Shown one piece after another: positions 48,033-64,000 of a stretch of 64,000 nt of DNA (within the stretch, counting starts at the first letter, position 1; every line of letters starts with the position of its first letter). The notes below the pieces were generated by a model. That model searched no databases, was not told where the DNA came from, and saw nothing but the letters and a program-made list of their open reading frames with translations. Both the position numbers and the translations under genes were made by a program. This stretch comes from Leclercia adecarboxylata. Lineage in GTDB: Bacteria > Pseudomonadota > Gammaproteobacteria > Enterobacterales > Enterobacteriaceae. The DNA lies in contig NZ_CP098325.1 of the NCBI RefSeq assembly GCF_023639785.1, forward strand, positions 124,001-188,000. Direction: 5' to 3'.

Positions 48033-48090
48033 ATGTTCTCAGAAAATAAAGCTTGTCTTTGATCCGCTAACTATGTCTTAATACACCTCG

Positions 48091-48248
48091 TCGGTTTGTT
48101 ACACAGACCTAAAGCAGTTTAGTAAAGCAGTCCAGATGCGTTATCCTTAGATACCCTTCGTAGTGACCCTTCCTTCATCGCTTAAAAATCTGTAACACAT
48201 TCCATCATCGCGCCGGAAGGCAAAACAAATTTTTAAAAGGTAATATCT
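48091..48248 (+). promoter_or_regulatory. cspA long 5' leader (cold-sensing mRNA structure)
   Basis: About 158 bases closely matching the E. coli cspA leader: CGGTTTGTTACACAGACC at its start is the cold-box region, then AAAGCAGT, CTTCGTAGTG and finally AAAAGGTAAT before the ATG. In E. coli this RNA refolds at low temperature to open the ribosome site. The start point is placed by similarity, with a TTAATA -10-like element at 48078. Confidence 0.8.
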
Positions 48249-48461
48249 ATGTCTGGTAAAATGACTGGTCTGGTAAAATGGTTCAACGCTGATAAAGGTT
48301 TCGGCTTCATCACTCCTGACGATGGCTCTAAAGACGTGTTCGTACACTTCTCTGCTATCCAGAACGATGGCTACAAATCTCTGGACGAAGGTCAGAAAGT
48401 TTCCTTCACCATCGAAAGCGGCGCTAAAGGCCCAGCAGCTGGTAACGTTGTAAGCCTGTAA
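48249..48461 (+). CDS. cspA: major cold-shock protein CspA
   Basis: 70-residue RNA chaperone with a single cold-shock domain. It has the nucleic-acid-binding motifs KGFGFITP (RNP1) and DVFVHFSAI (RNP2), and the start [15 protein letters not shown]. It melts RNA structures in the cold and acts as an antiterminator. The leader identifies it as cspA rather than another csp paralogue. The position near yiaG also matches E. coli. Confidence 0.96.
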
Positions 48462-48486
48462 GCTTCCAGCTCAGCTAAAAGAACTT

Positions 48487-48513
48487 AAAAACCCGCCTCT
48501 GGCGGGTTTTTTT
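48487..48513. terminator. terminator between cspA and ghrB
   Basis: AAAACCCGCC-TCT-GGCGGGTTTT with a long T-run; symmetric, so it can end both convergent genes. Confidence 0.93.
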
Positions 48514-48516
48514 CGT

Positions 48517-60345: not shown

Positions 60346-60570
60346 TTTCTGCACTCCGTAAAAAACAGTCCGATGGTATGTCATCGGACTTGTTTTTTTG
60401 TAAATATTTGCAGGGATCACATTCTCTGCTGCCACTTTTTCTTTTCCTTGTGGTCTACTTACCGCGCTTACAGACGTTTCCTATAACGTACTCCCAGGCA
60501 ATGAAATATGTTGTTCACTTTTTAACCAAGAGTGAGACGGCTCTACTTTATCTTTTTCCAGGTTGCATTA

Positions 60571-62262
60571 ATGAAATATATCAAAGCGATGACGCAACAA
60601 AAGCTCAGCTTTTTGCTCGCGTTGTACATCGGTCTGTTTATGAATGGCGCGGTTTTTTTCCGTCGGTTTGACGGTTATGCGCAAGACTTTACCGCCTGGA
60701 AAGGAATCGCTGCGGTCGTTGAACTGGTTGCCACTGTGCTGGTCACCTTCTTTTTACTGCGTTTGCTGTCGCTGTTTGGCCGCCGGATATGGCGCGTACT
60801 CGCCACGCTGGTGGTGTTGTGCTCGGCGGGTGCCAGCTATTACATGACCTTTATGAACGTGGTGATCGGCTACGGCATTATTGCCTCGGTCATGACCACA
60901 GATATTGATCTCTCGAAAGAGGTGGTCGGTATTCACTTTGTCCTCTGGCTGGTTTGCGTCAGCATCCTGCCGCTGCTGCTTATCTGGAACAACCGCTGCC
61001 GCTATACGCTGTTGCGCCAGCTGCGTACCCCAGGGCAGCGCATCAGAAGCGCTGCGGTGGTTGTCCTGGCGGGATTGATGGTGTGGGGCCCTATCCGCCT
61101 GCTGGATTTACAGCAGAAAAACGTTGAGCGTACCTCCGGCGTGGATATGCCGAGCTATGGCGGCGTGGTGGCGAACTCCTATCTGCCGTCTAACTGGATC
61201 TCCGCGCTGGGGTTATATGCCTGGGCGCAGGTGGATGAGTCTTCTGACAATAAATCGCTGATGAACCCGGCGAAGAAATTTACCTATCAGGCCCCTGCGG
61301 ATATTGATGATACCTATATGATCTTCATTATCGGTGAAACCACGCGCTGGGATCATATGGGGCTTCTGGGCTATGAGCGGGATACGACGCCGAAGCTGGC
61401 GCAGGAGAAAAACCTCGTCGCCTTCCGCGGTTACTCGTGCGATACCGCGACCAAGCTCTCGTTGCGCTGCATGTTCGTGCGTGAGGGTGGGGCAAGCGAT
61501 AACCCGCAGCGTACGCTGAAAGAGCAGAACGTCTTCGCGGTGCTGCGCCAGCTGGGCTTTAGCTCCGACCTCTACGCGATGCAAAGCGAGATGTGGTTCT
61601 ACAGCAACACCATGGCCAACAACATTGCCTATCGTGAGCAGATTGGCGCTGAGCCGCGTAACCGCGGTAAGAGCGTGGACGATATGCTGCTGATCGACGA
61701 GATGAAACGCTCGCTGCAGGGCAACCAGAATGGTAAGCATATGATTATTCTGCATACCAAAGGGTCGCACTTTAACTACACCCAGCGTTATCCGCGCAGC
61801 TTTGCAAAATGGACGCCGGAGTGTAAGGGCGTGGACAAAGACTGTAGCAAACAGCAGCTGATCAACTCCTACGATAACTCGGTGACCTATGTGGATCACT
61901 TTATCGACAGCGTGATTGACCAGGTGCGTGATAAGAAAGCTATTGTCTTCTACGCCGCCGATCACGGTGAGTCGATTAACGAGAAAGAGCATCTGCACGG
62001 CACGCCGCGCAAGATGGCACCGCCGGAGCAGTTCCGCGTCCCGATGATGGTGTGGATGTCTGACAAGTATCTGGCGAACCCGGAGAAAGCCAAAATGTTC
62101 GCCCACCTCAAAGAGCAGGCGGATATGAAAGTGGCGCACCGTCATGTGGAGCTGTACGACACCATTCTCGGTTGCCTCGGTTATACCTCGCCGGACGGCG
62201 GGATTAACGAGAATAACAACTGGTGTAAAGTGCCGGACACCGCGGTGAAAGCCGCGAAGTAA
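60571..62262 (+). CDS. eptB: kdo(2)-lipid A phosphoethanolamine transferase EptB
   Basis: EptB adds phosphoethanolamine to the outer Kdo of LPS, at the inner-membrane periplasmic face. 563 residues, the E. coli length. Four to five N-terminal membrane helices occupy about residues 1-170. The periplasmic sulfatase-like domain has the metal-binding Glu in IGETTRWDHMG, the expected nucleophile Thr in SCDTATKLSLRCMF, and metal ligands in FYAADHGES with HLHGTP. In E. coli it is repressed by sRNA MgrR and raised by sigma-E. The start at 60571 matches the family; 13 earlier codons are open. Confidence 0.96.
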   Translation: MKYIKAMTQQKLSFLLALYIGLFMNGAVFFRRFDGYAQDFTAWKGIAAVVELVATVLVTFFLLRLLSLFGRRIWRVLATLVVLCSAGASYYMTFMNVVIGYGIIASVMTTDIDLSKEVVGIHFVLWLVCVSILPLLLIWNNRCRYTLLRQLRTPGQRIRSAAVVVLAGLMVWGPIRLLDLQQKNVERTSGVDMPSYGGVVANSYLPSNWISALGLYAWAQVDESSDNKSLMNPAKKFTYQAPADIDDTYMIFIIGETTRWDHMGLLGYERDTTPKLAQEKNLVAFRGYSCDTATKLSLRCMFVREGGASDNPQRTLKEQNVFAVLRQLGFSSDLYAMQSEMWFYSNTMANNIAYREQIGAEPRNRGKSVDDMLLIDEMKRSLQGNQNGKHMIILHTKGSHFNYTQRYPRSFAKWTPECKGVDKDCSKQQLINSYDNSVTYVDHFIDSVIDQVRDKKAIVFYAADHGESINEKEHLHGTPRKMAPPEQFRVPMMVWMSDKYLANPEKAKMFAHLKEQADMKVAHRHVELYDTILGCLGYTSPDGGINENNNWCKVPDTAVKAAK

Positions 62263-62312: not shown

Positions 62313-62341
62313 TTGACGGGGTCGCAGCGTAGCAGTAAGAT
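62313..62341 (+). promoter_or_regulatory. tRNA-Pro promoter
   Basis: TTGACG (62313), a 17-base spacer, then TAAGAT (62336). The following GCGCTCC is a GC-rich discriminator of the kind that makes tRNA and rRNA promoters sensitive to ppGpp. Confidence 0.8.
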
Positions 62342-62353
62342 GCGCTCCGCATT

Positions 62354-62430
62354 CGGCGAGTAGCGCAGCTTGGTAGCGCAACTGGTTTGGGACCAGTGGG
62401 TCGGAGGTTCGAATCCTCTCTCGCCGACCA
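62354..62430 (+). tRNA. proM: tRNA-Pro, anticodon TGG
   Basis: 77 nt including the encoded CCA. Acceptor CGGCGAG pairs with CTCGCCG. The anticodon stem ACTGG/CCAGT encloses TTTGGGA, with TGG at positions 34-36. The T arm is GGAGG-TTCGAAT-CCTCT. The sequence agrees with E. coli proM as I recall it, whereas the eptB-dppA position in K-12 carries proK (CGG). The symbol is given from sequence; by position it would be proK. Confidence 0.95.
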
Positions 62431-62469
62431 CATTCGAAAACCCCGCTCTTTGAGCGGGGTTTTTTGCAT
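62413..62469 (+). repeat. direct repeat copy 1: tRNA 3' end plus terminator
   Basis: 57 bases running from the T-loop (ATCCTCTCTCGCCGACCA) through CATTCG and the terminator stem CCCCGCTC-TT-TGAGCGGGG to TGCAT. An identical 57-base copy starts at 62579, 166 bases downstream. Confidence 0.95.
62437..62465 (+). terminator. terminator of tRNA-Pro
   Basis: AAAACCCCGCTC, a TT loop and TGAGCGGGGTTTTTT. The stem stands six bases after CCA. Confidence 0.93.
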
Positions 62470-62502
62470 CTGAAATTAATAAGGATGAGAACCTCCGGGG
62501 CA

Positions 62503-62578
62503 GGAGGTTCGACTCGAGCGAAGCGAGAGAACGTTGCTTCAGCAACGGCCCGCAGGGCGAGTCACGGAGTGACGAGTT
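62503..62578. repeat. T-arm fragment and 66-nt hairpin-rich insert
   Basis: GGAGGTTCGA (62503-62512) repeats the left half of the tRNA T arm. At the point between the two T-loop adenines a 66-base block is inserted (62513-62578). It contains consecutive small hairpins: CTCG/CGAG, CGTTGC-TTCA-GCAACG, GCCC-GCA-GGGC and GTCAC-GGA-GTGAC. The outer ends GACTCG and CGAGTT can also pair with each other. The remaining tRNA 3' end then resumes at 62579. Confidence 0.85.
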
Positions 62579-62635
62579 ATCCTCTCTCGCCGACCACATT
62601 CGAAAACCCCGCTCTTTGAGCGGGGTTTTTTGCAT
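62579..62635 (+). repeat. direct repeat copy 2: tRNA 3' end plus terminator
   Basis: An exact 57-base copy of 62413-62469, including CCA and the whole terminator hairpin (stem at 62603-62631). It cannot form a tRNA because no 5' half is present. Confidence 0.95.
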
Positions 62636-63240: not shown

Positions 63241-64000
63241 ATGAGTATTTCCTTGAAGAAGTCAGGGATGCTGAAGCTTGGTCTGAGCCTGGTAGCCATG
63301 ACTGTCGCAGCAAGCGTACAGGCAAAAACGTTGGTCTACTGTTCTGAAGGCTCGCCGGAAGGCTTTAACCCACAGCTCTTTACCTCGGGTACGACGTACG
63401 ACGCCAGCTCTGTACCTATCTATAACCGTCTGGTTGAATTCAAAACCGGTACCACGGAAGTTATTCCGGGTCTGGCAGAGAAGTGGGAAGTCAGCGAAGA
63501 CGGTAAAACCTATACCTTCCACCTGCGCCAGGGCGTGAAGTGGCAGGACAGCAAAGAGTTCAAACCGACGCGCGATCTGAACGCAGACGACGTGGTGTTC
63601 TCCTTCGACCGTCAGAAAAATGCCCAGAACCCGTACCACAAAGTCTCCGGCGGCAGCTATGAGTACTTCGAAGGTATGGGTCTGCCGGATCTGATCAGCG
63701 AAGTGAAAAAAGTTGACGATAAGACCGTTCAGTTCGTGCTGACCCGTCCGGAAGCGCCATTCCTGGCTGACCTGGCTATGGACTTCGCCTCTATTCTCTC
63801 TAAAGAGTACGCGGACAACATGCTGAAAGCCGGCACCCCGGAAAAAGTTGACCTGAACCCAATCGGTACCGGTCCATTCCAGCTGCTGCAGTACCAGAAA
63901 GACTCCCGTATTCTGTATAAAGCGTTCGAAGGTTACTGGGGCACCAAGCCGCAGATCGACCGTCTGGTCTTCTCTATCACGCCTGACGCCTCCGTGCGTT
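63241..64000 (+). CDS. dppA: dipeptide-binding periplasmic protein DppA, 3'-truncated by the window edge
   Basis: Periplasmic receptor of the dipeptide ABC importer; it also binds heme and serves chemotaxis through Tap. The reading frame opens at ATG 63241 and runs off the end (253 codons of about 535). Signal peptide MSISLKKSGMLKLGLSLVAM...AASVQA, mature start KTLVYCSEGSPEGFNP. Family SBP_bac_5 features include VEFKTGTTEVIPGLAEKWEVS and DVVFSFDRQKN. TTGGAG precedes the ATG. The rest of dppABCDF should follow outside the window. Confidence 0.97.
   Translation, partial: MSISLKKSGMLKLGLSLVAMTVAASVQAKTLVYCSEGSPEGFNPQLFTSGTTYDASSVPIYNRLVEFKTGTTEVIPGLAEKWEVSEDGKTYTFHLRQGVKWQDSKEFKPTRDLNADDVVFSFDRQKNAQNPYHKVSGGSYEYFEGMGLPDLISEVKKVDDKTVQFVLTRPEAPFLADLAMDFASILSKEYADNMLKAGTPEKVDLNPIGTGPFQLLQYQKDSRILYKAFEGYWGTKPQIDRLVFSITPDASVR

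Follow-up and report, generated by a model that had tools for sequence, protein, structure and literature searches.

The tRNA-Pro gene between eptB and dppA in Leclercia adecarboxylata is followed by a member of the RtT, or tRNA-linked repeat (TLR), family, which is a structured trailer behind a tRNA gene, able to form tandem arrays. Read from the sequence, one unit comprises a terminator, a spacer, an inverted T-arm, a hairpin body and an 18-nt copy of the 3′ end of the host tRNA, here called the tail. The explanation that we favor, and consider probable, is that recombination bounded by the tail changes this trailer and that read-through RNA is processed at the tail. Coordinates refer to the window, the whole 64,000-nt stretch of DNA that was analyzed, and are collected in Table 1.

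The window element is a single full unit flanked on either side by a terminator hairpin, and its parts follow in the order inverted T-arm, left half of a direct T-arm, hairpin body, and right T-arm half through the acceptor strand and CCA. A preliminary description of this DNA had reported that 57 bases around the tRNA 3′ end recur downstream, and the recurrence is exact (62413-62469 equals 62579-62635, at a spacing of 166). The left T-arm half that it placed before the second copy is likewise present: GGAGGTTCGA (62503-62512) is split from the ATCC at 62579 by 66 nt (62513-62578). This split lies inside the T-loop, as had been proposed, with the copy starting at the 18th nt from the tRNA 3′ end, and the insert is rich in hairpins, being a block of mostly short stems within an element that folds at -48.2 kcal/mol (z = -2.74 against shuffles). 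The inverted T-arm had been overlooked. It is the 5′ arm AGGATGAGAACCTCC (62482-62496), which lies upstream of GGAGGTTCGA and is followed by a six-base loop before 62503; as AGGAT-GA-GAACCTCC, it is the reverse complement of the T-arm GGAGGTTCGAATCCT but for two bases (GA for TC). The RF00391 match begins 34 nt past tRNA-Pro, and 109 nt lie between the two 57-bp copies. The promoter scan returned 1 match against 1.3 expected in shuffles, and the consensus terminator scan did not list T1.

Table 1. Features of the tRNA-Pro/RtT locus, with positions in the window.
Feature	Position	Strand	Basis
eptB (phosphoethanolamine transferase), left flank	60532..62262	+	Pfam EptA_B_N and Sulfatase; E. coli annotation
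Sigma-70-like promoter of the tRNA (TTGACG, 17 nt, TAAGAT)	62313..62341	+	consensus scan only
tRNA-Pro, anticodon TGG	62354..62430	+	ARAGORN
Repeat copy 1: 18-nt tRNA 3′ end and first terminator	62413..62469	+	exact repeat
Terminator hairpin T1	62437..62463	+	perfect 12-bp inverted repeat ending in T; folds predicted
RtT RNA, RF00391, full-length, 98 bits	62464..62596	+	Rfam covariance model
5′ arm, imperfect inverted T-arm (AGGAT-GA-GAACCTCC)	62482..62496	+	sequence; comparison with other tRNAs
Helix H1, AGGAT of 5′ arm / ATCCT of tail copy			covariation
Hairpin H2, GAACCTCC / GGAGGTTC, GA on both flanks	62489..62510	+	minimum-energy fold, alignment
Direct copy of left half of T-arm, GGAGGTTCGA	62503..62512	+	sequence; repeat search family D2
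Hairpin H3 (CTC..GAG), weakly supported	62513..62527	+	sequence; absent from the element's minimum-energy fold
Hairpin H4, CGTTGC-TTCA-GCAACG	62532..62547	+	minimum-energy fold; two-sided changes
Hairpin H5, GCCC-GCA-GGGC	62548..62558	+	fold; three inner pairs invariant in 44 sequences
Hairpin H6, GTCAC-GGA-GTGAC, GA-flanked, most covarying helix	62561..62573	+	fold, pair counts
Tail, exact tRNA 3′ end copy from T-loop to CCA	62579..62596	+	exact repeat, tail comparison
Repeat copy 2: tail and second terminator	62579..62635	+	exact repeat
Terminator hairpin T2, identical to T1	62603..62629	+	exact repeat, predicted fold
dppA, right flank, cut by window end	63241..64000	+	Pfam SBP_bac_5; E. coli annotation

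The preliminary suggestion of an rtT-like element at a tRNA-Pro locus holds. The match to RF00391 (RtT) at 62464-62596 covers positions 1-130 of 130 with 98 bits (cut-off 45, E = 1.2e-18), and the element is not new in kind, because E. coli records already annotate an RtT sRNA at eptB, tRNA-Pro and dppA. The same genome has nine RF00391 matches, seven of them above the cut-off, at loci with tRNA-Pro, -Lys, -Ser and -Arg. At E values up to 0.001, matches occur in 22 of 23 same-genus relatives, in 68 of 119 genomes taken one per genus of the family (its own included), and in 53 of 247 genomes of the order (its own included), the last spanning 11 families, 7 of which have a match above the cut-off. 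Of 5426 E. coli genomes, 5375 contain some match to the query, and in 2499 a match spans at least 80% of its length. Seven E. coli strains that were read carry 0, 1 or 2 full RtT copies at the eptB-dppA locus, which therefore shows natural copy-number variation; with such variants at the same locus, the deletion rate, tail correction and RNA processing are directly measurable. Spread by phages or plasmids was considered and rejected: RtT matches are found in only 4 of 50,697 phage records and 30 of 72,556 plasmid records, all 30 plasmid records being typed non-mobilizable and several being of chromosome length. One of the four phage-collection records, L047, was inspected and looks like host chromosome because its tRNA-Pro stands with eptB and dppA. 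Elsewhere in the window, a cspA thermoregulator (RF01766) is located at 48090-48515 with 365.7 bits.

Linkage to tRNA genes was evaluated in 94 loci that form the best-scoring part of the RF00391 matches listed, some of which overlap one another. In 91 of these 94, a tRNA points at the match within 700 nt; the other three are at a contig edge (L209), beside masked bases (L217) and on a 4.9-kb contig (L220). The last 18 nt of the Rfam match are identical to the 3′ end of the closest tRNA upstream in 79 of the 94 best-scoring loci, with 50 tRNA ends available for the comparison. Among the remaining 15, that tRNA is nearest without being equal in four, two are ties, three are nearer to another tRNA and six have no comparison. 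A separate tail search gave 259 candidates, from which 12 were removed for lacking the core signature or containing masked bases and 15 as duplicates, leaving 232 unique units (94 Tyr, 78 Pro, 40 Lys, 15 Ser, 4 Arg and 1 Glu); the search overlooks decayed tails such as that of L110. The tail is exact in 188 of the 232, a figure conditional on at most 4 tail mismatches, whereas the 79 of 94 was read with no prior demand for similarity. Identity with the tRNA ends 18 nt from the 3′ end in 101 exact tails, 19 nt in 85 and 20 nt in 2. The precise insertion point that was first noted in the window is thus found family-wide, with 186 of 188 exact tails stopping at 18 or 19 nt, and the block recurs in tRNA 3′ fragments with the same T-loop junction. 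Judged from these sequences, the placement of the join at one point of the T-loop is common to the family and not peculiar to this locus. In the window, the tail and tRNA-Pro agree at 18 of 18 positions, or over 57 bp when the terminator is counted. Two Pasteurellaceae RtTs do not fit the rule of a position downstream of a tRNA, because the available text of PMC4986893 places them upstream of tRNA genes.

The region from the T-loop to CCA is a frequent site of tRNA-targeting integrases, and the copied segment spans this region and beyond. The repeated tRNA 3′ end could then be the attL/attR pair of an integrative element, a form of the integrase relic that the preliminary description had offered, but this origin finds no support and we judge it highly improbable: the six neighboring ORFs scanned contain no integrase domain, just 109 nt separate the copies, in many loci of the Pro body tree an element stands between eptB and dppA, and related bodies occur behind tRNAs of six amino acids, each with its own tail and some in tandem arrays.

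Another reading assigns the tail a function at the RNA level. Across the 232 units, 12 tail mismatches fall at the seven T-loop and T-stem positions versus 76 at the eleven acceptor and CCA positions, and this bias supports a small-RNA gene under selection, its tail kept as a recognition site for RNase E or a tRNA 3′ exonuclease, with identity reflecting function more than recombination. We regard such a gene as a serious possibility, short of the probable one.

The mean pairing of the 5′ arm is highest with the tRNA of its own locus for all six amino acids when an offset of 0-2 is allowed. The averages for the own tRNA, for tRNAs of other amino acids and for shuffled arms are, respectively, 6.4, 5.4 and 5.6 for Pro, 6.5, 4.3 and 4.9 for Lys, 8.3, 7.0 and 4.7 for Ser, 8.0, 6.7 and 4.8 for Arg, 9.1, 5.1 and 5.2 for Tyr, and 14, 5.4 and 3.9 for Glu. 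For single units the advantage is weaker, the own tRNA exceeding the best other one in 82 of 94 units for Tyr, 25 of 78 for Pro, 21 of 40 for Lys, 1 of 15 for Ser, 0 of 4 for Arg and 1 of 1 for Glu; under a stricter statistic, with pairing required from the first tail base, it is not favored for Glu or for Ser(GGA), Ser(TGA) and Ser(CGA) units. In an alignment of 44 chosen units from Pro, Tyr, Ser and Glu loci (Lys and Arg being left out), 93.4% of cells are paired, compared to 38-52% in slid controls, and there are 95 two-sided changes versus 26 in shuffles, controls that remove relatedness only in part. Three of the twelve two-sidedly changed pairs belong to H1, and RNAalifold recovers H1 unaided while keeping two H2 pairs and pairing part of the H2 3′ strand with the H3 region. 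H1, in which AGGAT of the arm can pair with ATCCT of the tail copy to close the entire element, rests on comparison, because the minimum-energy folds of the element and of the whole transcript are without it. Together, these data suggest that the 5′ arm co-varies with the tail, and the covariation of H1, H4 and H6 supports the small-RNA gene. Folding the whole transcript to minimum energy sets the 5′ acceptor strand of the tRNA against the tail copy and not against its own 3′ strand; the copy could therefore compete with that strand. This fold and the lack of H1 in that of the element count against the explanation that we favor.

Further, the inner CCC/GGG of H5 is invariant in 44 of 44 sequences, and by a simple pattern GA flanks H2 at both ends in 62 of 78 units for Pro, 71 of 94 for Tyr, 12 of 15 for Ser, 1 of 1 for Glu, 18 of 40 for Lys and 0 of 4 for Arg. 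The available part of PMC7657543 describes a tandem GA motif for RtT. The paired GA prompted a reading as a k-junction, which the accessible text of PMC10573300 describes as tandem G.A pairs combined with a loop in the strand that bulges and a third helix in the opposite strand; the reading was set aside, as no matching bulge loop was seen on reading the alignment. The kink-turn papers searched contained no mention of RtT. The Lys- and Arg-linked units L002, L009 and L034 share a short body without H2 (AGGATAACG.TGC...GCA.CGGCCCG..GGGCGAGGCGA..GCCGAGT), a second architecture in the family.

If selection acts on the sense RNA only, changes in stems should pass through G.U and not through A.C. 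The counts are 50 to G.U versus 44 to A.C (p = 0.61) and, for internal pairs, 32 versus 19 (p = 0.09), neither of which is significant; a subset of H2, H4 and H6 that was picked after seeing the data gives 33 versus 15 (p = 0.013). Earlier, smaller sets gave 27 versus 17 for Pro and 5 versus 7 for Tyr, and 26 versus 19 for Pro. The strand test has little power, because the stems of 69 tRNA genes, counted by state as a yardstick, yield just 30 G.U versus 16 A.C. Terminator stems yield 37 G.U and no A.C but cannot serve as a control, since those pairs were taken from the predicted fold. In addition, Pro and Tyr together show 35 whole-pair replacements from one Watson-Crick pair to another, and the H6 loop is GGA in the window and GAA in E. 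coli C600.

The lack of significant asymmetry counts against a small-RNA gene and also against the explanation that we favor, and the near-equal numbers of G.U and A.C changes, like the frequent whole-pair replacement, favor hairpin DNA that has no product and is generated by template switching, its inverted repeats being held perfect by quasi-palindrome correction and its arrays by slippage. We nonetheless think this origin unlikely. The GA beside H2, the invariant CCC/GGG and the matches in 11 families are hard to explain without selection, and correction should revert GA to TC; such a reversion is seen in L064 and in some Lys units (L002, L007 and L028), and a pattern search for it can also catch the direct T-arm.

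For transcription, the closest guide is the rrnB repeat. According to the available text of PMC8144298, TLRs linked to 5S rRNA are transcribed past the first terminator, termination at rrnB being 87% at T1 and 100% at T2, and the rrB RNA begins 3 nt after 5S and stops 3 nt past the repeat; it interacts with Hfq and CsrA, and RNase E recognition is proposed as the role of the repeat. These boundaries, interactions and the proposed recognition support the small-RNA gene, as do the RtT signals on Northern blots of a Pasteurellaceae species (PMC4986893, in part). Reads for four RtT copies in E. coli are reported in the accessible part of PMC5331693. Against the small-RNA gene, the 19 TLRs of tRNA operons score below 0.01 in the CsrB/C-type prediction, and TLRs are described as having no known function as of 2021 (both from the available text of PMC8144298). 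By analogy, our best guess is that the tRNA-linked element may be read through and processed as the rrnB repeat is. The terminator hairpin T1, which precedes the element, counts against read-through.

The terminators indicate how units change. T1 and T2 of one locus have a median identity of 0.96, and 36 of 58 first-copy Pro units reach 0.9 or more; for T1 between loci the value is 0.76. Compared with all T1 sequences, T2 is closest to that of its own locus in 25 of the 58 units and ties for closest in 11. As far as alignments tell, this likeness is concerted evolution, and it is incomplete. A tail is exact in 122 of 141 units with downstream homology versus 66 of 91 without it (Fisher p = 0.01, the rows not being independent), and the 66 of 91 exceeds what is expected from homogenization alone.

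Within the genus, 60 genomes were searched and 57 matched; 50 loci were read (30, and 20 of a further 27 with low coverage), and two main terminator types, I and II, occur. The full element is present in 19 of the 50, with terminators I/I in 7, I/unclassified in 1 (I-like by eye), I/II in 6, II/II in 4 and unclassified/II in 1. One further locus, L110, has a full-length decayed element with a damaged tail, type I then II, and two, L116 and L119, have truncated elements. The element is absent in 28 of 50, which consist of 5 solo I, 20 solo II and 3 unclassified loci (two of them II-like by eye). Such absence is frequent enough to favor the product-free hairpin DNA and, together with the truncated L116 and L119 and the decayed L110, to count against a selected small-RNA gene. 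L110 also weighs against the explanation that we favor. The solo type II is the type that follows the tail in the seven TLR alleles whose T1 differs in type. An I-element-II allele and a solo II allele thus differ by the whole stretch from the tRNA end to the tail copy, the difference predicted for an exchange inside the 18-nt tail. We read solo II as loss, because the element is found at this locus in other genera and because L075, an outgroup from another genus, has a type-II-like terminator after its tail; insertion of the element into a solo II ancestor is a possible alternative. The eptB tree is not clean, and the choice of loss over ancestral absence leans on L075 and the other genera. 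Elsewhere, a strain lost one tyrosine tRNA gene along with RtT (PMC12584984, available part), and a table in the accessible part of PMC2658671 apparently lists a 175-bp repeat-number variant in rtT RNA.

Tails and bodies can also be followed separately. In the Pro body tree, L092 has a GGG-type tail and a body nested among TGG-type bodies (supports of 0.92 and 0.93), and L114, placed with weak support among CGG bodies, carries a TGG tail; some tails therefore appear to have changed apart from the body, as is best seen in L092. The window element and other same-genus TGG elements form a clade with CGG elements of the eptB-dppA locus, and common descent of the window tail and body is possible because this clade also holds L056, a TGG element from another tRNA cluster in another genus. 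When seven bases are compared, all 17 same-genus TGG loci with a recognized element have the TGG-type end; the two CGG loci comprise one with an exact end and one whose first copy carries a single change and whose second carries two. A recurrent exception in several genera is a copy ending CTGGCACCGACCA, mismatched to its tRNA; it is the distal or the sole copy at L039, L043, L054, L057, L058, L060, L065, L067 and L115.

The tRNA itself also varies. At eptB-dppA it is Pro-TGG in 48 of 50 same-genus loci, the window included, and Pro-CGG in 2 of 50; it is Pro-CGG in all seven E. coli strains read, the comparison covering L113, L115 and L040 among others. The tRNA there has therefore been exchanged. 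In one genome (G071), the Pro-TGG loci at eptB-dppA and in an Arg-His-Leu-Pro cluster (L062 and L078) share T1 and nearly the same RtT body, a resemblance that suggests exchange between these two loci of G071.

A more speculative reading treats the TLR as a cassette addressed by its tail: the segment from T-loop to CCA would act as a recombination address, and the body would be excised and captured by other tRNA loci, after which tail and arm would be rewritten. If true, this would be a non-coding route of spread among tRNA genes, one that requires no dedicated enzyme. We give it little weight, around one chance in several. The mobile hairpin unit targeting T-loops that the preliminary description had suggested may hold in a changed form: the alleles look like exchange in the tail, while movement of the unit is conjecture.

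Returning to the tail-bounded reading that we favor, recombination or slippage inside the repeated tail, either between tRNA and element or between elements, would duplicate, delete or homogenize the unit, and a deletion bounded by the tail would leave the tRNA intact. The arm would track the tail because both pair, by way of selection on the fold or hairpin-templated correction. RNA polymerase passing T1 would transcribe the element up to T2, and enzymes that mature RNA ends would cut at the tail to release a candidate small RNA, two steps modeled on the rrnB repeat. Overall, the comparisons suggest that gain and loss of the repeat, and its matching to the host tRNA, happen at the copied tRNA end. 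They supply testable rules, namely that the junction lies in the T-loop, that arm and tail change together, that tail and body can change apart and that exit seems to occur through the tail. If tail recombination repeatedly rebuilds the tRNA 3′ end, it bears on the evolution of tRNA genes and terminators.

Among known systems, hairpin repeats between genes are also formed by REP and BIME sequences. No REP-like sequence was seen by eye in the window element. In E. coli L040 (1605-2000), L041 (1605-1850) and L042 (1605-1850), the 5′ part of an element ends in GACTCGA and is followed immediately by a REP-like palindrome, which we take to be REP. Some RtT-like sequences are linked to BIMEs according to the available part of PMC2965389, and the REP-like junction in these three loci may explain that similarity. 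The rrA, rrB and rrF repeats of the E. coli rrn operons have the same arrangement of stable-RNA gene, first terminator, repeat with copied 3′ end and second terminator. They differ in that their tail copies 5S rRNA and that their CsrA-type prediction does not extend to the TLRs of tRNA operons (PMC8144298, in part); this likeness is one of layout, the sequences not having been compared.

The nearest systems are RtT and the TLRs. Like the RtT of the E. coli tyrT repeat (RF00391), the window element lies downstream of a tRNA, has a tail equal to the tRNA 3′ end and has a period of about 170 bp; its host tRNA is Pro(TGG) in place of Tyr or Pro(CGG). The TLRs of Rudd 1999, as summarized in the accessible text of PMC8144298, have a 3′ end of 18-19 bp identical to the upstream tRNA or rRNA and occur one to five per locus, with 22 copies at ten E. 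coli loci; the repeats date from 1978 (Egan and Landy 1978, Bosl and Kersten 1991 and Rudd 1999 are cited there). The window element shares the position behind a tRNA, the 18-nt identity and the membership in a repeated family. The inverted T-arm, arm-tail co-variation and terminator alleles are absent from the TLR description in the available part of PMC8144298. To this known family, the present analysis adds an inverted T-arm that co-varies with the tail, tails that changed separately from the body, and alleles bounded by the tail.
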